A stretch of 14,397 bases of DNA from Ignavibacteria bacterium (GTDB lineage: Bacteria > Bacteroidota > Ignavibacteria > UBA10030 > SZUA-254): positions 3,474 to 17,870 of the forward strand of contig VBOC01000054.1 of assembly GCA_005877655.1 (NCBI GenBank), read 5' to 3'. The notes beneath the pieces are model-generated. The model was not told where the DNA came from and did no database searches. It saw nothing but the letters and a program-made list of their open reading frames with translations. This document shows positions 4,386 to 14,137 of the stretch, piece by piece; position 1 is the stretch's first letter; every line of letters starts with the position of its first letter. Both the position numbers and the translations under genes were made by a program.

Positions 4386-6746
4386 ATGCCGGTTCGATCA
4401 ACGAATCCGCTGCGACAGTACGATGCCAGCTCATCGGTAGAGCCCCTGGAGCTCGACCGGAGCGGGCGGAAATTCATCTATCCCCCCGCCGAGAAGATCG
4501 GGGTGATCGAGGTGGAGAACTTTCCCGCGCTGGGAAAGCTCGCCGCCCTCCGCTTTATTGAATGGGTCCTCAAGAACCCGGGCGGCGTCATCGCTCTTCC
4601 GACCGGAAGAACACCCGAGCATTTCATCAAGTGGGTCCGGCGGATCCTCGACCGGTGGAACACCGGCGAAATCAAGCGCCTTCTCAGGGAATATGGAATC
4701 GGCGGATCCGGACCCCCCGATATGCGGAGCCTCATCTTCGTCCAGATCGACGAGTACTATCCGATGGATGCCCGGCAACACAACAGCTTTCACCACTATG
4801 TGAACGAGTTCTATCTGAAGGGGTTCGGCCTCGATGCGAAGAAAGCATTGCTGATCGACTCGACCACTCTGGGCCTTCCTCCGGGAACGTCAATGGAGGA
4901 ACTGTTTCCGGGGAACATCGTCGATCTCACGCTTCGGGTGAGGCAGACCCGATCCGACCTCGAACACCTCCAGAGGGAGGTGATCAACCGGGTCGACATG
5001 TTCTGCACCGAATATGAAATGAGAATCAGGCATCTGGGCGGCATCGGTTTTTTTCTGGGGGGAATCGGGCCGGACGGACATGTGGCCTTCAACGTGAGAG
5101 GGTCAAGTGTTTTTTCCACCACCCGGTTGACGGGCACGAACTACGAGACGCAGGCGTCGGCCGCATCGGACCTGGGCGGGATCGAGATATCCCGCAACCG
5201 GCTCGTGATCACCATCGGCCTCGCTACGATTACGTACAATCCCACTGCCACGGCGATCATCATCGCCGCAGGGGATGCCAAGGCGCAGGTCGTCGGCCGG
5301 GCGATCGAAGAAAAGAAACACCAGCAATATCCCGCCTCAGTGCTCCAGGACCTCAAGCACTCCCGATTCTATCTCACGAGGGGAGCGGCGCGGGCCCTCT
5401 CCGAGAGGCGGGTCGAAGATATTCGACGCATGCATCCGCCGTCGGATCAGGTCGTCGATGACGTGCTCATTTCACTCGCCTCGAGCCGCAGGAAGCCGCT
5501 CCAGGAATTGACCGCGGGCGACTGCCGGGCCGACCGGCTCGCCAACGAACTGATGCGCTCGAAAAGCAGGTCACTCCGCCAACGGACTCACGCCGTGCAG
5601 AAGCGCCTCCTCGGCAAAATTGAAAAAGGAATCGCGACCGTAACGGGCACCACCTTTCTTCACACTGAACCGCATCAGGACGACGTGATGCTCGGCTATC
5701 TCGCCTACATTTATCATCTCGTCCGCGATCCCACGAATAAACACTATTTCGCAAATCTCACCTCCGGTTTCACCTCCGTCTCGAATCAGTACTGTCTCTC
5801 GATCGTCCGGAAGCTCGGGGACCGCCTCAACAATGCGTCGTTCCTGAAGCTGCTGAGGAATCCCGGCGACAGGGCGAAGAGAATGGAGGATGTCTATTTG
5901 TTCCTGGACGGCGCCGCCGCAAAGCGCGAGGAGAAAAAGGACGAAGCGGAAGCCAGGCGCCTGCTCCGCAATCTCATCGGCATATACAAAACGAAAAAGC
6001 TTTCAATTCTGCGCACTAAAATTCTGGAATTGGACGAGTACTTGATTTCACAATACCCCGGAGGGAAAGATCCTCCGGAGATACAGCTCATCAAAGGAAC
6101 GCTGCGGGAGTGGGAAGTCGAGCTCTTGTGGGCCTACTTCGGAATCGAGGCATCCGACGTGCATGCGCTCAGGTTGGGATTCTACGGCGGAGAGCTGTTC
6201 GGAGAAGAACCGCGGATCGAGCGCGATGTCCTTCCGATTTACAAACTCATGATGCGCGTTCGTCCCGATGTTATTTCAGTGGCCTTTGACCCCGAGGGGA
6301 GCGGTCCGGACACGCATTACAAGGCCCTCCAGGCGGTGGCGGAGGCGGTAAAGATGTATCAGAAGCGCGCCAGTTCGAGGCTCAGGATCTGGGGCTACCG
6401 GAACGTCTGGTACCGATTTAGCCCCGGTGAGGCTACGACCATGGTCCCGGTATCGCTGAATACTCTCTCCCTGCTGCACACGGCGTTCATGAACTGCTTC
6501 GGCTCGCAGCGTGCCGCCTCCTTCCCGAGCTACGAGCACGACGGCCCGTTTTCCGAGCTGGCACAGAAGATTCAGGTCCAGCAATATGGAATCGTCAAAA
6601 CCTGCCTCGGAAAGGACTTCTTCCTCAACCACCCCCATCCCCGTTTGAGGGCCGCGCGGGGAATGATTTTCATTAAAGAGATGTCCCTTCCCGAGTTTTA
6701 CGATAAAGTCCGGGAACTGAAGAAGGTCACCGAAGCGAGGGAATGA
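4386..6746 (+). CDS. NagB-like isomerase/deaminase domain fused to PIG-L (LmbE-type) deacetylase domain
   Basis: This is a 786-residue two-domain protein with no signal peptide. Residues about 25-330 are a NagB/SugP-isomerase-like domain: LPTGRTP (71-77, LPTGGTP in NagB), D122-E123-Y124 in QIDEY (the general-base region) and D230-G-H232 in GIGPDGHVAFN, followed by the STTRL/TNYETQA loop. The residue matching NagB Glu148 is V237, so classical glucosamine-6-phosphate deamination is plausible but not assured. Residues about 415-770 are PIG-L-like: the metal-binding PHQDD (429-433) and DTHYK (642-646, the late His), interrupted by a charged helical insertion around 510-590. PIG-L enzymes are Zn2+ N-deacetylases of GlcNAc-type substrates, so the protein could deacetylate and deaminate an amino-sugar phosphate. 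Similar fusions are known to me from Bacteroidetes-like genomes. The ATG abuts the mgtA TAG, so translation is probably coupled. Confidence 0.85.
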   Translation: MPVRSTNPLRQYDASSSVEPLELDRSGRKFIYPPAEKIGVIEVENFPALGKLAALRFIEWVLKNPGGVIALPTGRTPEHFIKWVRRILDRWNTGEIKRLLREYGIGGSGPPDMRSLIFVQIDEYYPMDARQHNSFHHYVNEFYLKGFGLDAKKALLIDSTTLGLPPGTSMEELFPGNIVDLTLRVRQTRSDLEHLQREVINRVDMFCTEYEMRIRHLGGIGFFLGGIGPDGHVAFNVRGSSVFSTTRLTGTNYETQASAASDLGGIEISRNRLVITIGLATITYNPTATAIIIAAGDAKAQVVGRAIEEKKHQQYPASVLQDLKHSRFYLTRGAARALSERRVEDIRRMHPPSDQVVDDVLISLASSRRKPLQELTAGDCRADRLANELMRSKSRSLRQRTHAVQKRLLGKIEKGIATVTGTTFLHTEPHQDDVMLGYLAYIYHLVRDPTNKHYFANLTSGFTSVSNQYCLSIVRKLGDRLNNASFLKLLRNPGDRAKRMEDVYLFLDGAAAKREEKKDEAEARRLLRNLIGIYKTKKLSILRTKILELDEYLISQYPGGKDPPEIQLIKGTLREWEVELLWAYFGIEASDVHALRLGFYGGELFGEEPRIERDVLPIYKLMMRVRPDVISVAFDPEGSGPDTHYKALQAVAEAVKMYQKRASSRLRIWGYRNVWYRFSPGEATTMVPVSLNTLSLLHTAFMNCFGSQRAASFPSYEHDGPFSELAQKIQVQQYGIVKTCLGKDFFLNHPHPRLRAARGMIFIKEMSLPEFYDKVRELKKVTEARE

Positions 6747-6860: not shown

Positions 6861-7214
6861 ATGGTAAAACAACTCTCGGCGCTCCTGTTTGCAGTCGTTC
6901 TGGCCGTTTGCTTCACAACGATCACACGGGCTCAGGAATCGACACCACAAGAGCCGAAGAAGGAAGCAAAGCCGGAAATGACGAAAACCGAAAAGGCGCC
7001 CGAGAAAGGCGCGATGTATTCGGTGAGCTGCGATCCGACCTGCGGTTTCATGTGCCGGAGCCACGACAAGAAAGAGGTCACGGACATCGTCATGAGGCAT
7101 GCGCAGAAGGCCCACAACAAGAAGATGACCGCGAAAGAAGTGCACAATCCCGGTCCCGCCCACGCGGGGTCGGGATTTTTTTTACCTGTCCGGTCCCGAT
7201 TTGCGGGACAATAA
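6861..7214 (+). CDS. Small exported DUF1059-like protein
   Basis: This 117-residue protein begins with a Sec signal peptide (MVKQLSALLFAVVLAVCFT, likely cleaved after TRAQ). A Lys/Glu/Pro-rich linker follows, then a compact domain SVSCDPTCGFMCRSHDKKEV with DIVMRHAQKAHNKKM, resembling DUF1059. Three cysteines spaced C-x3-C-x3-C and the later histidines look suited to metal binding. Most DUF1059 proteins I know are short and cytosolic, so the exported form is unusual; its function is unknown. The domain ends near residue 93. The remaining residues are encoded by a perfect-looking intrinsic terminator (7146-7183) and the sequence after it, so the present stop may be a secondary one. The next gene begins 13 nt downstream. 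The start is certain from the strong Shine-Dalgarno. Confidence 0.8.
   Translation: MVKQLSALLFAVVLAVCFTTITRAQESTPQEPKKEAKPEMTKTEKAPEKGAMYSVSCDPTCGFMCRSHDKKEVTDIVMRHAQKAHNKKMTAKEVHNPGPAHAGSGFFLPVRSRFAGQ
7146..7183 (+). terminator. Strong intrinsic terminator inside the 3' end of the DUF1059-like gene
   Basis: The arms 7146-7159 and 7164-7177 pair over 14 bp (two of them G-T wobbles) around the 4-nt loop CCAC, and the stem runs into eight T (7176-7183). This is a textbook rho-independent terminator. It lies within the reading frame of the upstream gene and 44 nt before the GH47 start. Ribosomes reaching the stop at 7212-7214 would cover it, so read-through into the mannosidase gene may depend on translation. 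Confidence 0.85.
7193..7209 (+). promoter_or_regulatory. Secondary hairpin that competes with the terminator arm
   Basis: GTCCCG (7193-7198) pairs with CGGGAC (7204-7209) around a 5-nt loop. The same downstream arm (GCGGGAC, 7203-7209) is also a perfect 7-bp complement of the terminator's left arm (GTCCCGC, 7153-7159), so mutually exclusive folds are possible. It stands 8 nt ahead of the GH47 Shine-Dalgarno. The pairing is visible in the sequence; a regulatory role is inference. Confidence 0.35.
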
Positions 7215-7217
7215 TCC

Positions 7218-7221
7218 GGAG
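7218..7221 (+). promoter_or_regulatory. Ribosome binding site deciding the GH47 start
   Basis: GGAG lies 6 nt before the ATG at 7228. It supports that start over the upstream in-frame TTG at 7201, which lies inside the hairpin and would put nine charged or polar residues before the signal peptide. Confidence 0.6.
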
Positions 7222-7227
7222 TCGAGC

Positions 7228-8547
7228 ATGAACCGATCCGCGGGAGCCCTCGCCTGCTTAATGTGCCTGCTGTCCCTCCGGCAGGCGGCATCTCAGGACA
7301 AGACCCTTCTCCTCGAAACAGACAAGTCCAGGATGGCCGAGGATGTGCGCCGGGAATTTCTGCATTGCTGGAACGCCTACAAGAAATACGCCTGGGGACA
7401 TGACGAGCTGAAACCTCTCAGCAAGGGCTATCGCGACTGGGGGCGATTCTCTCTTTGCATGACCCCGGTCGATGCGATGGACGCCCTCACCCTCATGGGC
7501 CTCGCCGATGAAGCACAAGAGGCGAGGGAGCTGGTCGTTTCGAAACTCTCCTTCGATCGCGACATGGAGGTCAAAAATTTCGAGATCACGATCCGCCTCC
7601 TGGGCGGACTCTTGAGCAACTTTCAACTGACAGGCGACAAGCGCCTGTTAACTCTCGCCGAAGAGTTGGGAAACCGATTGCTCCCGGTGTTCAACTCTCC
7701 GACCGGCATGCCGTATGTTGCCGAAATCGGCACGCTGCTCATCGAATTCGGCACCCTGAGCAAGCTCACCGGCAAAGCCGTCTTCTACGAGAAAGCGAAA
7801 CGTGCGCTCGTCGAGCTCTACAACCGCCGCTCTCCCATCGGGCTCCTTGGTTCCGGGATCAACGTCGAGACCGGGGCCTGGACCGACTCGCTCAGCCACA
7901 TCAGCGGCGGAATCGATTCCTATTATGAATATCTCCTGAAGTGCTGGCGCCTGTTCGATGACAAGGAATGCGAAACCATGTGGCGGACGAGCATCGATGC
8001 GGCCGGGAAGTACCTCGCCCATGAAACGACCACCGGATTCTGGTACGCACGCGTGAACATGAGAACGGGGAAACGTGAGCAGACGCGCTTCGGGGCGCTC
8101 GATGCTTTCCTCCCCGCCGTCCTCGCGCTCTCGGGCGATCTGGAGCGCGCCGCACGACTGGAAGCATCGTGCTACAGGATGTGGACGAGATTCGGCATCG
8201 AGCCGGAGGAAATCGACTATGCGACGATGACTGTGACGGAGGGCGCCTATCCGCTCCGCCCCGAAATCATCGAGTCGGCATACTACCTTTATTACATTAC
8301 GAAACGGCCCGCCTATCTCGAAATGGGCAGGACTTTCTTTGACAGTCTCAAACGCTACTGCAAGACAGACGCCGGGTACGCCGCCTTGAAGGACGTTCGA
8401 ACGAAGGAGAAAAAGGACAACATGGAAAGCTTCTTCCTCGCCGAAACGTTAAAGTATCTTTACTTGCTGTTCGCACCGGCGGAAACTCTTGACCCGACGA
8501 AGGTTATTTTCAATACGGAGGCGCACCCGATACGGAGAACGTGGTAG
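7228..8547 (+). CDS. Exported glycoside hydrolase family 47 alpha-mannosidase
   Basis: This 439-residue protein has an N-terminal signal peptide (MNRSAGALACLMCLLSL, then RQAAS-Q) and a single GH47 (alpha/alpha)7-barrel domain. GH47 enzymes are Ca2+-dependent inverting alpha-1,2-mannosidases, best known from eukaryotic ER and Golgi N-glycan trimming, with a smaller set in bacteria. All landmark motifs are present: E60 in AWGHDELKPLSK, D292 in GALDAFLPAVLAL, E346 in YPLRPEIIES, E400 in DNMESFFLAETLKYLY, and T430-E431 in FNTEAHPI, the Ca2+-binding threonine near the C-terminus. These match the acids usually numbered E330, D463, E599, E663 and T688 in the human ER enzyme, so the protein looks catalytically intact. 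It probably acts in the periplasm on mannose-containing glycans. It follows the DUF1059-like gene by 13 nt and ends 3 nt from the convergent GT2 gene, leaving no room for a terminator between them. Confidence 0.92.
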   Translation: MNRSAGALACLMCLLSLRQAASQDKTLLLETDKSRMAEDVRREFLHCWNAYKKYAWGHDELKPLSKGYRDWGRFSLCMTPVDAMDALTLMGLADEAQEARELVVSKLSFDRDMEVKNFEITIRLLGGLLSNFQLTGDKRLLTLAEELGNRLLPVFNSPTGMPYVAEIGTLLIEFGTLSKLTGKAVFYEKAKRALVELYNRRSPIGLLGSGINVETGAWTDSLSHISGGIDSYYEYLLKCWRLFDDKECETMWRTSIDAAGKYLAHETTTGFWYARVNMRTGKREQTRFGALDAFLPAVLALSGDLERAARLEASCYRMWTRFGIEPEEIDYATMTVTEGAYPLRPEIIESAYYLYYITKRPAYLEMGRTFFDSLKRYCKTDAGYAALKDVRTKEKKDNMESFFLAETLKYLYLLFAPAETLDPTKVIFNTEAHPIRRTW

Positions 8548-8550
8548 GGA

Positions 8551-9744
8551 CTAGGCGGGACTCCCTGACGATTGTTCCTCAGGAAGCGGCGCGTCGCCGG
8601 CTTCACGGTGGGTGCGAATCCATTCCTTTGACCCGCGCTTTTTGAGCATCCCGGCATAGAGCATGAGTTTCCAGAGGGCGTACCGGGGCAGGTGAAGCAA
8701 AACTTTCAGGTCTTCCATGGAACCCCGGGCCGCCTGAATTCCGACCAGGAGGTGTACCATCCCTATTCCCATCAGCCCGGCCCAAAGCCAGATCACAGGT
8801 CCCAGTTCCGAAAAACCGAGCCCCAGCAGGATGGCCGACATCATGAACATCGCCGAAACGGCCATGAGCAAATTGACGAGCGGCGGAGTGACAAGATCGA
8901 TGAAGGCATCGAAACATCGATACGAGCGTGCGTACAGGGCGGTGCGGAGAAGCCGGCCCGCATACTTTTTTACTAGTGGATATCTGCCCATTTCCCACCT
9001 CGCGCGCTGGCTCCGGGCGTTTGCGGCAAATTGAGGCATCGCGGCGATCACGGTCGCTTCGGGCGCGAAGACCACCCCGACCCCCCGGAGCAATAACTCC
9101 GGAACCCGGCGAAGCGTGTCGACGGCGAAGCACATGCCGTTTCCACGCAAACCCGACGAACATCCGAGAGCCATTCTGCCGAGCGGGCGCACGTAATTGT
9201 AGAGCAGGAAGCCGATGCGAATGATCTCCGAACTCCAGGACCCGGGGAGCGGATTGACCAGATCGCTGCTCTGGATTGCCTCCGCCCCTGCTTGAAGCTC
9301 ATCATTCATGACCGAAAGAAAATTCCGCGAGGCGGTGCTGTCGGCGTCCACGACGACGACCGCGTCGTACCGGGACAATGAGACGAGTGCGTCAAAGCCC
9401 CAGCGCAGCGCATAGCCTTTGCCCCGCAGATGCGGATCGTTTCTTTCCAGGATCTGGACTCGCGGACGATTCGCAACTTGAGCGGTGCCGTCATCGCAGT
9501 TGTCGGCAATGACGACGACATCGTACATCTGGCTTGGGTAATCGATCGCGAGCAGGCTTCGGAGCGTTGCATCGATCGTCCGCTCTTCGTCGTGCGCGGG
9601 AACGACGATGGCGAATCGGCGCAGGCGGGAATTGCCCGAATTCCGGCGCTGTCCGGGATTGAGGGCAAGGACGCTGAGGAAGGCGAGATAACAGAGCGGG
9701 AGGCCAAAAATCAAAAGAAGGACGATTTCAAGAACTGTTATCAT
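8551..9744 (-). CDS. Membrane-bound family 2 glycosyltransferase
   Basis: This is a 398-residue processive-type GT2 enzyme that would transfer a sugar from a nucleotide sugar at the cytoplasmic face of the inner membrane. It has an N-terminal membrane helix (VLEIVLLLIFGLPLCYLAFL) and the nucleotide-binding start FAIVVPAHDEERTI. The metal-binding motif is D133-A-D135 in VVVDADST, and the acceptor-site motif is Q246-R-A-R249-W250 (QxxRW). Two or three C-terminal membrane helices follow (LLMAVSAMFMMSAILLGLGF and PVIWLWAGLMGIGMVHLLVG). The QxxRW motif and membrane segments resemble synthases of hyaluronan, cellulose and poly-GlcNAc type, so it could build or extend a polysaccharide. The ATG at 9744 (MITVLEIV) is preferred over the GTG at 9750. 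It is the last gene of the minus-strand operon, 13 nt after the acyltransferase-PRODH fusion. Confidence 0.9.
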   Translation of the reverse strand: MITVLEIVLLLIFGLPLCYLAFLSVLALNPGQRRNSGNSRLRRFAIVVPAHDEERTIDATLRSLLAIDYPSQMYDVVVIADNCDDGTAQVANRPRVQILERNDPHLRGKGYALRWGFDALVSLSRYDAVVVVDADSTASRNFLSVMNDELQAGAEAIQSSDLVNPLPGSWSSEIIRIGFLLYNYVRPLGRMALGCSSGLRGNGMCFAVDTLRRVPELLLRGVGVVFAPEATVIAAMPQFAANARSQRARWEMGRYPLVKKYAGRLLRTALYARSYRCFDAFIDLVTPPLVNLLMAVSAMFMMSAILLGLGFSELGPVIWLWAGLMGIGMVHLLVGIQAARGSMEDLKVLLHLPRYALWKLMLYAGMLKKRGSKEWIRTHREAGDAPLPEEQSSGSPA

Positions 9745-9757
9745 AGACACCCGGTCT

Positions 9758-11626
9758 TCACAACAGTCCCTGGTTCCAGTCCCCCCCGGTCAGGAGGCCA
9801 TTCAACGCCCATGCCATCATCGCAGGGCGATGCGAAACGTAGCGGATGTTGTAGGGTAGATACGGAGTGCCGAACGGAACATAGACCCTCACCGGGATCC
9901 CCAGAGGTTCTGCAGCACTCTTGGCAATCGAAGGCAGCCCGAGCATCTGTTCCAATTCACACCGTGTTTTCGAGGCATGCAGGATCGTGAGGGCTTCGTG
10001 GGCGAGCTGACGATCGTGCGTGCCGACAAACACATGCGCGCACCGCCCCGCGAGCGCTCGGATCAGGACGAGAAAGTTTCTCCGGCAGTCAAGCCCGTTT
10101 CCCTTCGGGTCCGACCATTGTCCTTTTACGACACGAACCGAAACCCCGGACCTGATTGCCCATTCGGCGTCCTCGATGCTCCGTTCCCATCTTGAAGGAA
10201 GCGTGCACCCGACCAATTCCCAGATCGCGTGCGCGGCTTCGGTGAGCTCGATCGTCCTGTCCTGTGCTCGGGCGTCGACCGCATCGAACTGGAGCGGCAC
10301 GCGGCGGCGCGATGCATAGCACGCGAGTTCCCGGACGAGATCCGGGTCGAATCTCAGGTCGGAGATCTTGACGGATAACTGGCCGTCAAATTGCTCGGCC
10401 GCAATTGAGTCGATCGCCGCCTTGGAGTTCTTGAGAACCTGCGCGGGGGGTTCCGAATCTCCCCTCCAGTGCGCGACCGTCAGCAATGCCTTGCGCTCGG
10501 CGAGGCGCCGGCATACGCTGATCGCATCCGCGAGTTCCGGTCCGGCAACATACCGGTGCCCGATCCGCTCGATGGAGCGTCGTTTGAGGCGAGCCAGCGT
10601 TTTGAACAGGCGGTATCCACACCATGCGAGCCCGTCGACCGAGAACGGATAACAATCATGCAACACGTGTTCCCGCTTCGCGCTCGTCCACATATGGATC
10701 CACGGCTCGTCCGTCCCGAGAAATTCAAACTCGGCAAGGCCTTTTGAAAATGCCCAATGGATGGCCTCATGCATCAGCAAGATACCAGGGGAACAGTGTG
10801 CCCACGTTTCATCGAACCCGACCTTCAACACCCACAAGCGCCGTGCATGTTCGACCGCCAGTATCCCCGCAACTGCCTGACCATCGACCCGCAGGAAAAA
10901 GAACCGGAGGGCGCCCGTCCGGGCGGCCGCATGCCCGTACGAAGTAAAAAAGCGCGCGGAACGGGGGTCGGACCGGACGGCCGTCCCCAGCCGCCCCTTC
11001 CACCCGGTTGCTTCTACGTTGACAAATTCGCGAAGATAGGATTCGACACTCTCCTCCGTCGGCGATTCCACCTGTATCTGCACCTCCCCCATTTCATCCA
11101 GCCGCCGCCGCGCCCGCCGCAAGCTTGAGCGCCGGCTTGAAGAAATCCCCGCTTCAAAATCTTCCCAGGGTCCGTCGATGAGGAGCCATGGAGAGGCGGA
11201 CTGCCTTCGTACCGTTACCCCGCGAAGCGGAGCAGCCAATCTTCGGGCAAGCCGGATCTCGGGCGAATCCGCCGCAATCCTTCCAAGGCGTATCGGGAGC
11301 CGTTGAGCACTGACCGCCCAAAGGAGTTCCTTGAGCGATTCTTCATCCCTGAACAGAAAACCGCTCGGCTCCTGCAGGGTCGAGCTCCCAAGCAGTTCCA
11401 GCCGCCGGACGCCCCGGCGGCGAACCATCACCATCGGCGCTGCGGCGACGAGTTCTTCTCCGTCCCTGATGAGAATAATCATGAGCTCATCGGGAGGGCT
11501 CACCGCCGCCGCGCAGGCGGCAAACCATTCGTGGGTGAGGAGCGGGTTTTGAAATTCCAATGCCAGCGCATCCCATTCGCGCTCCAGTTTCATCAAACCC
11601 GCAACAGTATCAACGACTTCGATCAC
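9758..11626 (-). CDS. CelD/BioF2-type GNAT acyltransferase fused to a proline-dehydrogenase-like domain
   Basis: This is a 622-residue cytosolic protein with two parts. Residues 1 to about 330 are a double-GNAT acyltransferase of the CelD/BioF2-like (Acetyltransf_6, FemAB-related) type: LEREWDALALEFQNPLLTHE at the start, an Arg-rich SSRRSSLRRARRRL segment, then LRFFFLRVDGQAVAGILAVE and KVGFDETWAHCSPGILLMHE. Residues about 345-622 resemble the PRODH (beta/alpha)8 barrel: LSVKIS with K420 (like PutA K329), FDAVDARAQDR with D448 (like D370), VRVVKGQW with K501, GTHDRQL (from G535), LEQMLGL, VRVYVPFG and PYNIRYVSHRP (R595). The usual substrate-binding Arg pair reads R595-Y596 here. PRODH enzymes oxidise proline with FAD; this substitution suggests another substrate, or binding only. 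I know no characterised protein with this fusion. The GTG start at 11626 has AAAGGGG 4 nt upstream and overlaps the preceding gene by 17 nt. Confidence 0.8.
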   Translation of the reverse strand: MIEVVDTVAGLMKLEREWDALALEFQNPLLTHEWFAACAAAVSPPDELMIILIRDGEELVAAAPMVMVRRRGVRRLELLGSSTLQEPSGFLFRDEESLKELLWAVSAQRLPIRLGRIAADSPEIRLARRLAAPLRGVTVRRQSASPWLLIDGPWEDFEAGISSSRRSSLRRARRRLDEMGEVQIQVESPTEESVESYLREFVNVEATGWKGRLGTAVRSDPRSARFFTSYGHAAARTGALRFFFLRVDGQAVAGILAVEHARRLWVLKVGFDETWAHCSPGILLMHEAIHWAFSKGLAEFEFLGTDEPWIHMWTSAKREHVLHDCYPFSVDGLAWCGYRLFKTLARLKRRSIERIGHRYVAGPELADAISVCRRLAERKALLTVAHWRGDSEPPAQVLKNSKAAIDSIAAEQFDGQLSVKISDLRFDPDLVRELACYASRRRVPLQFDAVDARAQDRTIELTEAAHAIWELVGCTLPSRWERSIEDAEWAIRSGVSVRVVKGQWSDPKGNGLDCRRNFLVLIRALAGRCAHVFVGTHDRQLAHEALTILHASKTRCELEQMLGLPSIAKSAAEPLGIPVRVYVPFGTPYLPYNIRYVSHRPAMMAWALNGLLTGGDWNQGLL

Positions 11627-12956
11627 GTTTCCCCTTTGATATTAAGACGATACTCACCCGGTACTCCGTCATTGCAGACCCGATAGGTGTTTTGTGGGCC
11701 TCGGGAGGACCCTGTTTCTGGCGGGTTGCCGGCGCTCTCTGACGCCTTCTCAGGAGAAATCCCAGTGCCGAAACCATAAACGGAAGTGGGTCCGTGGGAT
11801 CGAAGACGCGGAAGTGGATCTTCGCCGCGAACGACCTCAGGTATGAATTGAACGTCCACTCTCCGGTGTGCCGGTAACCGGTCCAGTACGCTCGAAGATC
11901 CTGTTTGACATGCAGCAGGCGGGCGTCATCGGTGTACGATTGTCCACAATCCACGGACTCTCCGCGCTGGTCATGATAGGCCGCCGATGCCAGATTAACG
12001 CGCGCATAAGCGCCCAGCAGCTCCCAGAGGTTGAAGCGAGGATTGATCTCCAGAATATTAAATGCTTTTGTCCGAACATCCCATTTGTAATCTATTTTCA
12101 CTATTCCCTGAAATCCGATTCGCCGGAGATACTCGACGCTCAACCGGGCGAGAGACGTGTTGTGGATTGTCCGCACATACGCGCTCCCGCCGGTATGCGG
12201 CGGGTAGGTGCGTATTTTGCGGCCCAGAAAATATCCAAGACAACGCGAGTGGATATCGAAGTACCCGTGGAAACTGTCAATCGATTCATCCCTCCCGTCG
12301 ATATATTCCTGAATCACGACCCCAGCCTCTCTTTCGGGCAGTGCCCCGCAGAAGTCCAGAAGCTGGGCTCTTGTCTCGAACCTCCGCAACGCGTTCTTGT
12401 ACGATCCGAAGCGGGCCGCCTGCTCGGGTGTATCCCATATCCAGTCCTGGCTGTATGCCGGCTTGACGATACAGGGAAACGTGATCGAACCCTCGAGCTC
12501 CAGAAAGTCTTCGAGGCGCCGGAGCGTGACCGTTCGGGGGATCGGGAGGTCGTGCTCGCGGGCGAACTTCGCGAAGAGCACCTTGTTGAAAAGCTTCTCA
12601 AGCAGATCGTCGGGAGGCAGCAGAAAACGGTAGAAAGGCTCAAGTTGATGGCGGTATCTCCAGACAAACCACAGTTCAGGGTCCGATGCATAGAAGAGGA
12701 CGGGCTTCTCCCCCCACCCGGAGCTGAGCTTCTGCAGCCGCATGATGATCTCGCCGTAATTCTCGGGCTTGAAAAAGGGAAGCACCCACCGTCCGGCGCA
12801 ATAACGGGAATGAAATCCGATGTCCGAGGGCTGCGAGGAAGCGATATGGCTCATGATTCCGGTCATGCCGAGCGACCTTGCGATATCGTACGCGCAGGGA
12901 GACCATCCAGCCGATAGAATCAGTGCCCCCGAGCTCTTTGCCGATGAATTCTGCAT
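11610..12956 (-). CDS. ATP-grasp ligase, COG3919-like (predicted carboxylate-amine/thiol ligase)
   Basis: This 448-residue cytosolic protein would activate a carboxylate as an acyl-phosphate with ATP and join it to an amine or similar nucleophile. The N-terminal pre-ATP-grasp fold reads GALILSAGWSPCAYDIARSL, with FHSRYCAGRWVLPF as in predicted ATP-dependent carboligases (COG3919). The ATP-grasp core has LFNKVLFAKFAREHDLPIP, the nucleotide-binding lysine K165 in FPCIVKPAYSQDW, the hinge IQEYIDGRDESIDSFHGYF, the basic loop LGRKIRTYPPHTGGSA, and E303-I-N305-P-R, the Mg2+-binding pair. The C-terminal tail, after LLRRR, is basic and low in hydrophobics. It begins 14 nt after the stop of a disrupted paralogue, has no clear Shine-Dalgarno, and overlaps the acyltransferase gene by 17 nt, so expression is likely coupled. 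The substrate is unknown; an amino acid or sugar acid of a surface glycan is a guess from context. Confidence 0.85.
   Translation of the reverse strand: MQNSSAKSSGALILSAGWSPCAYDIARSLGMTGIMSHIASSQPSDIGFHSRYCAGRWVLPFFKPENYGEIIMRLQKLSSGWGEKPVLFYASDPELWFVWRYRHQLEPFYRFLLPPDDLLEKLFNKVLFAKFAREHDLPIPRTVTLRRLEDFLELEGSITFPCIVKPAYSQDWIWDTPEQAARFGSYKNALRRFETRAQLLDFCGALPEREAGVVIQEYIDGRDESIDSFHGYFDIHSRCLGYFLGRKIRTYPPHTGGSAYVRTIHNTSLARLSVEYLRRIGFQGIVKIDYKWDVRTKAFNILEINPRFNLWELLGAYARVNLASAAYHDQRGESVDCGQSYTDDARLLHVKQDLRAYWTGYRHTGEWTFNSYLRSFAAKIHFRVFDPTDPLPFMVSALGFLLRRRQRAPATRQKQGPPEAHKTPIGSAMTEYRVSIVLISKGKRDRSR
11631..11637 (-). promoter_or_regulatory. Ribosome binding site for the GTG start of the acyltransferase-PRODH fusion
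   Basis: On the minus strand AAAGGGG precedes GTG (11626-11624) by 4 nt. It lies inside the 3' end of the ATP-grasp gene and supports a GTG start with a 17-nt gene overlap, a sign of coupled translation. Confidence 0.6.
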
Positions 12957-12970
12957 ACTCTATTGTTCGC

Positions 12971-14137
12971 TCATCCGATGATATTAACAGGGAGACGTTT
13001 GAGGATGCGCCCGCCAAAGCCCATGGCGGAACGAACGAAGGGCAACGGGTCGAGCGGATCAAATATGCGGTAGTATTTTTTCTTCATGAACGATTTGAGA
13101 TATGGGACCAGGGCCCACTCTCCGGATTTCCGGTAGCCGCCCCAATATGCGCGGATATCCGGAAGGAAATAAAGCATTCGGAGATCATCCGCATAACCTC
13201 CGGAAAGTCCTACCCGCTCTTCCCGCTGATGGCGATAGGCAATCAGGGGCAGGTTTATCCCGGCGTACGCTCCGAGGAGGTGCCAGAATTGAAAGTGCGG
13301 CTCAATCTCCATGATCATGAAATCGTTAGTCCGTTCATCCAGCTTATAGTCGATCTTGACGATGCCGCGCATGCCGATCCGGGCGAGGTAACCGATACTC
13401 TGCTTCGCCAACGCCTCGTTGTAAATGGTGCGCGAGTTAGCCGAGGCATTCCGAGCGTTCATTGAAGTAGCCGTGGAAGGTCGTGATCGCATCGTCGCCG
13501 CCGTCGATGTAAGACTGAACCACAAACCCGGAAGCCCGCTCGGGGAGCGCGTCGGCAAATTCCAACAGGTCATCCTTCGAACCGAATCGGCGCAGCGCCT
13601 GCTTGTACGATGGCAACCGATCCCGCTCTGCGGGATTCTTCCAGAACCAGTCCTGGTTGAAGGAAGGCTTCATGATGCAGGGAAACGCGACCGCGCCGAT
13701 TCTTTTCCGCAGGTCGCGCGCATCCGAGAACGATTCCCCCCGCGGAACGGGAAGGCCGCACCGTTGCGCGAACTCATAGAACCGCGACTTGTTGAGGAGG
13801 GTCGTGGTGAGCGGATCGCCCGGCAGGAGGAACCGGAAGTGTTCCTGCAGCCGGTCCCGGAACTGATGCACAAATCCGACCTCGGCGTCGCCCACATAGA
13901 AAAGCACGGGCTTCTCCTCCACCGAAGTTCCGATCGCTTCCAGAGCGTCTGCGATCTTTTCGTAATGGCTCGGCTGTCCGGCTGTGAGGAAACGACAATA
14001 GACTTAACTCCCGCCAGCCCTAGTGCGCGCACGATGTCGTATGCACCCGGCCATCCCCCACCGGTGAGAATGACCGCCCTCCGCGGCGCTTTATCTCGGC
14101 GCATGGTGTTGGCTTTCATTGAAAAAGAAATGTTCAC
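12971..14137 (-). pseudogene. Disrupted paralogue of the ATP-grasp ligase (two frame-shifting deletions)
   Basis: Three reading-frame pieces align end to end with the adjacent intact ATP-grasp protein. Piece A (14137 to about 13980) gives RAVILTGGGWPGAYDIVRAL to VVSSQP. Piece B (about 13973 to 13437) gives PSHYEKIADAL through FPCIMKPSFNQDW and YIDGGDDAITTFHGYF to ECLG-stop. Piece C (about 13435 to 12971) gives SRTIYNEAL through GIVKIDYK to LPVNIIG-stop. Between A and B about 20 residues of the neighbour (SDIGFHSRYC to LPFFK) are replaced by 5 nt; between B and C another 20 (YFLGRK to GGSAYV) are replaced by 7 nt. The net losses of 55 and 53 nt each shift the frame and together restore it. The remaining EINPR motif reads EIEPHF. 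Loss of the basic loop and the Mg2+-binding Asn implies no ligase activity. Starts are possible at GTG 14137 (GGGAG 9 nt upstream), ATG 14119 or ATG 14104. A misassembly is the main alternative. Confidence 0.75.
13971..13984 (-). repeat. Short direct repeat at the first deletion junction of the disrupted ATP-grasp gene
   Basis: CGGCTG occurs at 13971-13976 and again at 13979-13984, two bases apart (CAGCCG on the coding strand). It sits exactly where the frame changes after SSQP. Such short repeats are typical footprints of slippage or microhomology deletions; they can also cause assembly collapse. Confidence 0.55.

Follow-up and report, generated by a model that had tools for sequence, protein, structure and literature searches.

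A proline-dehydrogenase-fold barrel joined to a double-GNAT transferase: the fused form of a conserved pair with a possible role in modifying surface-glycan precursors

In a contig of an Ignavibacteria bacterium, one long open reading frame joins a GNAT-fold transferase to a barrel of the proline dehydrogenase (PRODH) type, inside an operon of ATP-grasp and glycosyltransferase genes, which raises the question of what these two halves have to do with each other and how far their union extends beyond this genome. The preliminary description of this DNA had proposed this domain composition and its operon setting, and both are borne out by profile searches and by the predicted model, with the catalytic lysine and the flavin-phosphate residues of PRODH kept. 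The features of the window, that is, the whole stretch of 14,397 nucleotides analysed, are collected in Table 1, where the gene calls are open reading frames, no gene finder having been used.

Table 1. Positions in the window of the fusion protein, its conserved residues and its operon neighbours (row counts refer to the barrel subfamily alignment).
Feature	Coordinates	Strand	Basis or remark
Fusion ORF, 622 aa	9758..11626	(-)	GTG start at 11626; ORF call, profiles and model
Double-GNAT transferase half, residues 1-335	10621..11626	(-)	PF13480 at residues 163-309; model
PRODH-like (beta/alpha)8 barrel, residues 341-622	9761..10606	(-)	Profile and predicted structure
Lys420 (PutA Lys329)	10367..10369	(-)	69/69 subfamily rows
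Asp448 (PutA Asp370)	10283..10285	(-)	69/69 rows
Arg498..Lys501 (PutA Arg431..Lys434), flavin site, VRVVKGQW motif	10124..10135	(-)	Arg 69/69; Lys 65/69, Arg in 4
Thr536-His537 (PutA Thr486-His487), flavin phosphate	10016..10021	(-)	Thr/Ser 69/69, His 69/69
Arg595-Tyr596 (place of PutA Arg555-Arg556), proline carboxylate	9839..9844	(-)	Arg 10/69 and 8/69
ATP-grasp gene, upstream	11610..12956	(-)	17-base overlap with fusion start
Second ATP-grasp gene	12971..14137	(-)	Coding stretches in changing frames
Open-ended fragment at contig end	14091..14396	(-)	BLAST grouping: second GNAT family
GT2 glycosyltransferase, downstream	8551..9750	(-)	Nearest NCBIfam model EpsU, below cut-off

Regarding the barrel half, it matches the PF01619 profile at 30.3 bits against a cut-off of 27, and structure comparison places its predicted structure in the (beta/alpha)8 fold of PRODH; the two checks that had been proposed for it thus both came out in favour of the assignment. 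A second structural aligner, applied to the full model, gave matches spanning residues 340-609 only. The weakest stretch of the barrel model is the helix carrying the place of the Arg pair (pLDDT 51-66; 79 in the full-length model), and in a six-frame genome search at E 0.001 the window barrel is absent from the PRODH matches listed. The same genome encodes two further PRODHs, each with the Arg pair and the canonical residues, and therefore proline breakdown is covered elsewhere.

According to the excerpted parts of the cited papers, Lys329 of PutA is the proposed catalytic base and Arg555 and Arg556 hold the proline carboxylate (PMC10651016), Arg431 and Glu559 are assigned to FAD binding and Asp370, Tyr540, Leu513 and the Arg pair to the substrate (PMC3718742), the flavin phosphates of Thermus PRODH are bound by Thr226, His227 and Lys187 (PMC5335563), and BjPutA loses its PRODH activity when an Arg of the carboxylate site is exchanged for Met (PMC5786444). 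The equivalent residues were read from an alignment of 69 subfamily rows (the window and 68 of the 69 other barrel matches, the contig-cut L030 being left out) with eight canonical PRODHs, using E. coli PutA as the reference numbering. Besides the positions in Table 1, Val433 is kept in all subfamily rows and Gly435, Tyr540 and Tyr552 in 68 each. Both equivalents of Arg555 and Arg556 occur together in a single row (L102) and either of them in 17, the window barrel having Arg at the first place and Tyr at the second, so that the Arg-containing segment, which had been listed among the PRODH signatures of this protein, is not conserved in the subfamily. In addition, the Glu289 and Glu559 equivalents are found in two rows each and that of Gln404, which we take to be a flavin contact, in none (Pro in 65), whereas Arg555, Arg556, Glu289, Gln404 and Glu559 are all kept in the eight canonical PRODHs. 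The place of Tyr406 is occupied by Arg in 65 rows, that of Ala436 by Gln or Glu in 68 and that of Tyr437 by Trp in 64; thus, GAY of PRODH becomes GQW and LQAY becomes LPxRW. As the Lys, Asp, Tyr and flavin-phosphate residues are kept and the Arg pair is gone, most of the hydride-transfer machinery is retained and the grip on a free carboxylate lost. The label "proline dehydrogenase" is probably wrong for these genes.

The transferase half matches PF13480 (Acetyltransf_6) at 112.7 bits against a cut-off of 22, and two GNAT-type halves are seen in its predicted model. When the full model was compared with the PDB by Foldseek, the folds other than PRODH among the first 50 matches listed were FemX from Weissella (E 6.2e-13), Sba18/Sbb17 (2.9e-10 to 1.6e-09) and MprF (1.7e-09), with no CoA-type GNAT among these 50; the matches carry no ranges, and the Fem-type ones would be those covering the transferase half of the model. 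The three Sba18/Sbb17 entries, of which two contain streptothrisamine, are described as peptide synthases that depend on aminoacyl-tRNA. An alignment of 41 rows (the window and 40 hand-picked of 76 rows) has an Arg-rich helix opening the second GNAT domain, at residues 162-179, with a net charge of +3 to +8 (mean 5.1), and the CoA motif [QR]xxGx[GA] is found in none of the 41 rows at residues 256-300. FemX is thought, in the part of the source available, to contact tRNA through a positively charged helix in its second GNAT domain (PMC12945691), and we infer that the Arg-rich helix is the same one. At residue 310, whose correspondence was judged visually from nine Fem-family ORFs in relatives, Lys occurs in none of the 41 rows and Ile, Leu or Thr in 36, and the catalytic Lys of the Fem "FK" motif (Lys305 in FemX) seems, from this alignment, to be absent. 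The half resembles the FemX/Fem-like aminoacyl-tRNA transferases (7z5y, 4ii9; Sba18 9wqy, Sbb17 9wqw; MprF 6lv0) in its double-GNAT architecture and Arg-rich helix, but differs in the apparent lack of the FK lysine and in that its profile gave no link to the solved Fem proteins among PDB sequences; designed proteins and ywmB, the sole matches in that search, were taken as chance. The nearest NCBIfam model is BspF, named as a crotonyl transferase, and a profile comparison with an XrtA FemAB protein was uninformative (probability 2%). In a viral structure library, the best match is a phage FemAB family protein, and no fusion occurs among the first 50 matches listed.

The preliminary description had regarded the fusion as unfamiliar; the protein is indeed fused here, but its halves are widespread as a pair of genes, of which the fusion is one form. 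At least 52 homologues were found among 7997 candidates scored, at least 19 of these also with the barrel; the protein of the window shares 88% identity with one of them, whose linker is longer by 20 residues. A single-protein scan of genome contigs gave no matches; the loci came from an alignment-based scan of genome contigs with two exact peptide patterns, one per half, the best 80 of 113 being kept, which yielded 78 loci, to which the window's genome and its relatives contributed three more, L018-L020. In this biased set of 81, which comes mostly from named genomes and also includes near copies (L044/L045, L033/L041 and four Polyangium), both partners are present in 67 loci: 60 with the transferase followed by the barrel, three in the reverse order and four fused, the barrel being therefore a separate gene in 63. 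The transferase occurs alone in 11 loci and the barrel in three. The latter, having no transferase above 200 bits, are L070, which starts inside a transferase gene, L099, at a contig end, and L050, beside a sigma-54 regulator. Two less biased samples, with two genomes (G000 and G027) common to both, agree with this pattern: among 60 genomes, the window's own and its relatives, a barrel of this type (>120 bits) is found in seven, in all of them fused or adjacent to the transferase, and of 296 genomes from the phylum, five give a match at E 1e-28, each of them with both halves.

The paired loci span ten named phyla (Ignavibacteriota, Calditrichota, Bacteroidota, Pseudomonadota, Actinomycetota, Acidobacteriota, Planctomycetota, Armatimonadota, Gemmatimonadota and Myxococcota), six of the 67 having no phylum assignment. 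Members occur in named strains, such as Altererythrobacter xiamenensis CGMCC 1.12494, Polyangium fumosum DSM 14668 and Thiocystis minor DSM 178, and the module is therefore testable. In the barrel tree, which like the transferase tree is a quick one without bootstrap, 88 subfamily rows are split from nine canonical rows by a branch with support 100, and the fused state changes seven times by parsimony, at least three of these changes being forced by starred branches; they may be fissions as well as fusions. This repeated change between fused and adjacent states is good evidence that transferase and barrel work together. The distances in the two halves also correlate (r 0.83 over 66 loci, a value reached in none of 1000 permutations), part of which may be explained by shared species history, as the comparison holds no control gene. 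In two relatives within the window's family (L020:4441-6369 and L025:1626-3560), transferase and barrel share a reading frame and are separated by one stop codon, a state close to the complete fusion of the window.

As to the genomic surroundings, the second ATP-grasp gene of the window is frameshifted or mis-assembled here, judging from its changing frames; in the relative L027, two open ATP-grasp-group genes stand in tandem ahead of the pair. Convergent with the operon, a glycosyl hydrolase of family 47 (E 1.6e-118) is encoded at 7201-8547 (+), and a 786-aa protein at 4386-6746 (+) has weak glucosamine-6-phosphate isomerase-like and weak PIG-L deacetylase-like parts, both below cut-off. The pair lies with ATP-grasp genes in the window's relatives, and in some of them also with a ComA-like sulfolactate synthase, polysaccharide deacetylase, glycosyltransferases and a GH9 hydrolase. 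Mining for the same fusion or for split neighbours next to ATP-grasp genes, as had been suggested, did recover both fused and split pairs; the ATP-grasp part held in 11 of the 67 paired loci only (group 4, in L018, L019, L026-L031, L038, L048 and L077), nine of the 11 being window kin, Ignavibacteriota or Bacteroidota, and the idea of an ATP-grasp as an essential partner was rejected. Across phyla the neighbours vary: when 67 were scanned at E 1e-5, hand-picked from 253 as the nearest on the same strand with near copies left out, the matches listed (25 of 73 families) comprised a further PF13480 in eight, HAD in eight, GH9 in six and GT2 in five. Only some of the loci thus have glycan genes directly beside the pair. 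Included in the HAD matches is a protein of about 960 residues (e.g., L068:10036-12933, L060:10462-13419, L027:12196-15099) that 15 of the 81 loci encode, several of them directly after the pair. Between its PRTase-like segment and its terminal HAD phosphatase lies a middle part, in which a HHNFGG...VDPAYDLA stretch is presumably phosphotransferase-like. ComA-type sulfolactate synthesis was likewise rejected as the general purpose of the barrel, as group 43 occurs in four loci (L026, L027, L028 and L031) and in the window's own genome. There, contig C176 (L105:1850-3342) carries a ComA-type phosphosulfolactate synthase adjoining a 2-phosphosulfolactate phosphatase family gene. The contig also encodes two methyltransferases, a GNAT-ATP-grasp protein and, truncated where the contig stops, a GNAT; this arrangement suggests the production of sulfolactate for a surface glycan of the same type.

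The 11 loci with a transferase and no barrel, from which it follows that the transferase is able to work alone, form one group inside the family (branch support 90 in the transferase tree). The neighbours were scanned in three of them, where L034 has an XrtA/PEP-CTERM FemAB match above cut-off and L039 and L052 have matches to XrtA-type models below it. Of nine of their genomes, six have no barrel match and two have weak ones (32 and 38 bits); the ninth, G353, has a 135.6-bit match elsewhere of unassigned class, to be read beside the 112.6 bits that Thermus PRODH scores with the same profile.

Our preferred reading, held tentatively and at somewhat below an even chance, is that the window protein is the fused form of a conserved module in which a double-GNAT transferase and an amine-oxidising flavoenzyme of PRODH fold act successively on a surface-glycan precursor. 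The fold, the residues kept and lost, the pairing, the repeated fused/split change and the glycan-type neighbours of part of the loci come from computation, whereas the flavin content, amine chemistry, step order, substrate and acyl donor are putative. Most likely, the transferase would charge an amino sugar, sugar nucleotide or related precursor with an acyl or aminoacyl group, and the barrel, acting after it on the same surface-glycan precursor, would use its flavin and the invariant Lys to take a hydride from the carbon next to the amine of that substituent; this amine could be prolyl-type or another cyclic or secondary one, in a molecule that lacks a carboxylate or has it blocked by amide or ester formation. 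The earlier suggestion of transfer followed by oxidation of an amino-acid-like group fits the loss of the Arg pair and the Fem-like predicted fold, and stays a proposal. A precedent is given by the BD-12 pathway, where, in the parts of the sources available, a Fem-like enzyme aminoacylates an amino sugar with a flavin amine oxidase alongside (PMC12945691, PMC10156733). The few Glu559 equivalents and the missing Gln404 in the alignment may count against a flavoenzyme. In a more specific version, which we hold as a long shot, a tRNA-dependent (e.g., prolyl) transferase would decorate an amino sugar of a surface polysaccharide, and oxidation of the residue in its amide linkage by the barrel would give a pyrroline, which on ring opening would form an aldehyde able to cross-link the matrix.

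Adjacency and fusion are silent on step order, and the barrel could instead act before the transferase, turning a free small amine into an imine or aldehyde that then serves as donor or acceptor, in a supply line rather than a tailoring line. The persistence of the transferase without a barrel in some loci fits this order, in which a different supply of substrate could stand in for the barrel; with the carboxylate site lost, however, an ordinary free amino acid is not a likely small molecule for it, and we regard this order as unlikely. It is highly improbable that the barrel is an ordinary proline dehydrogenase paired by chance with an acyltransferase, as its clade is separate from the canonical rows, the full Arg pair is confined to one row and the genome already has two PRODHs with it, even though the profile match lies above cut-off and the Lys, Asp, Tyr and flavin-phosphate residues are those of a PRODH. 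PutA also acts as a regulator, being annotated in E. coli as a fused transcriptional repressor, and the replacement of Gln404, Glu289, Arg555, Arg556 and Glu559 would likewise suit a barrel turned into a non-catalytic flavin or ligand sensor, as had also been put forward, or into a scaffold for the transferase. Such a role appears improbable, since the catalytic Lys, Asp370, Arg431 and His487 are invariant and Tyr540 and Tyr552 nearly so across the 69 rows, which is not expected of a dead barrel, and since the barrel is mostly encoded by a gene of its own; the sensor reading is thus unsupported.

Compared with known systems, the parts of the module have known folds, and what seems new is a barrel subfamily that has lost the carboxylate site and is tied to a transferase. 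Monofunctional PRODHs (PF01619; Thermus 2g37/2ekg, Deinococcus 4h6q/4h6r) have the Arg pair, Glu289, Gln404 and Glu559 that the subfamily has lost, and do not share its partnership with a GNAT-fold transferase. The BD-12 (streptothricin-type) pathway combines the Fem-like Orf11 with the FAD enzyme Orf1, which, as far as the excerpted sources go, is a glycine-oxidase-type (GR2) flavoprotein oxidising glycine and not a PRODH barrel, and its product is an antibiotic, not a polysaccharide; the likeness drawn here is one of the kind of step. The PF13480 transferases of XrtA/PEP-CTERM-type exopolysaccharide clusters, that is, the barrel-less loci, belong to the same transferase clade and have no adjoining PRODH-like partner. 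No report of a transferase/PRODH-like pair was found among the matches listed from open-licence full-text literature, and no PRODH partner is mentioned in the excerpts of papers dealing with the lipocone superfamily or with operons of the aminoacyl-tRNA/ATP-grasp kind.

PRODH is otherwise met, in the excerpts of the cited literature, as a proline-burning enzyme. A separate clade of barrels that keeps the Lys, lacks the carboxylate site and accompanies a transferase across ten named phyla would put the fold to a new use and indicate an amine oxidation not yet described, whose probable targets are the surface glycans of bacteria. If the pyrroline/aldehyde reading were true, ten or more phyla would have, in their glycans and with proline as the source of the aldehyde, a bacterial counterpart to the cross-links that collagen forms through lysine aldehydes.
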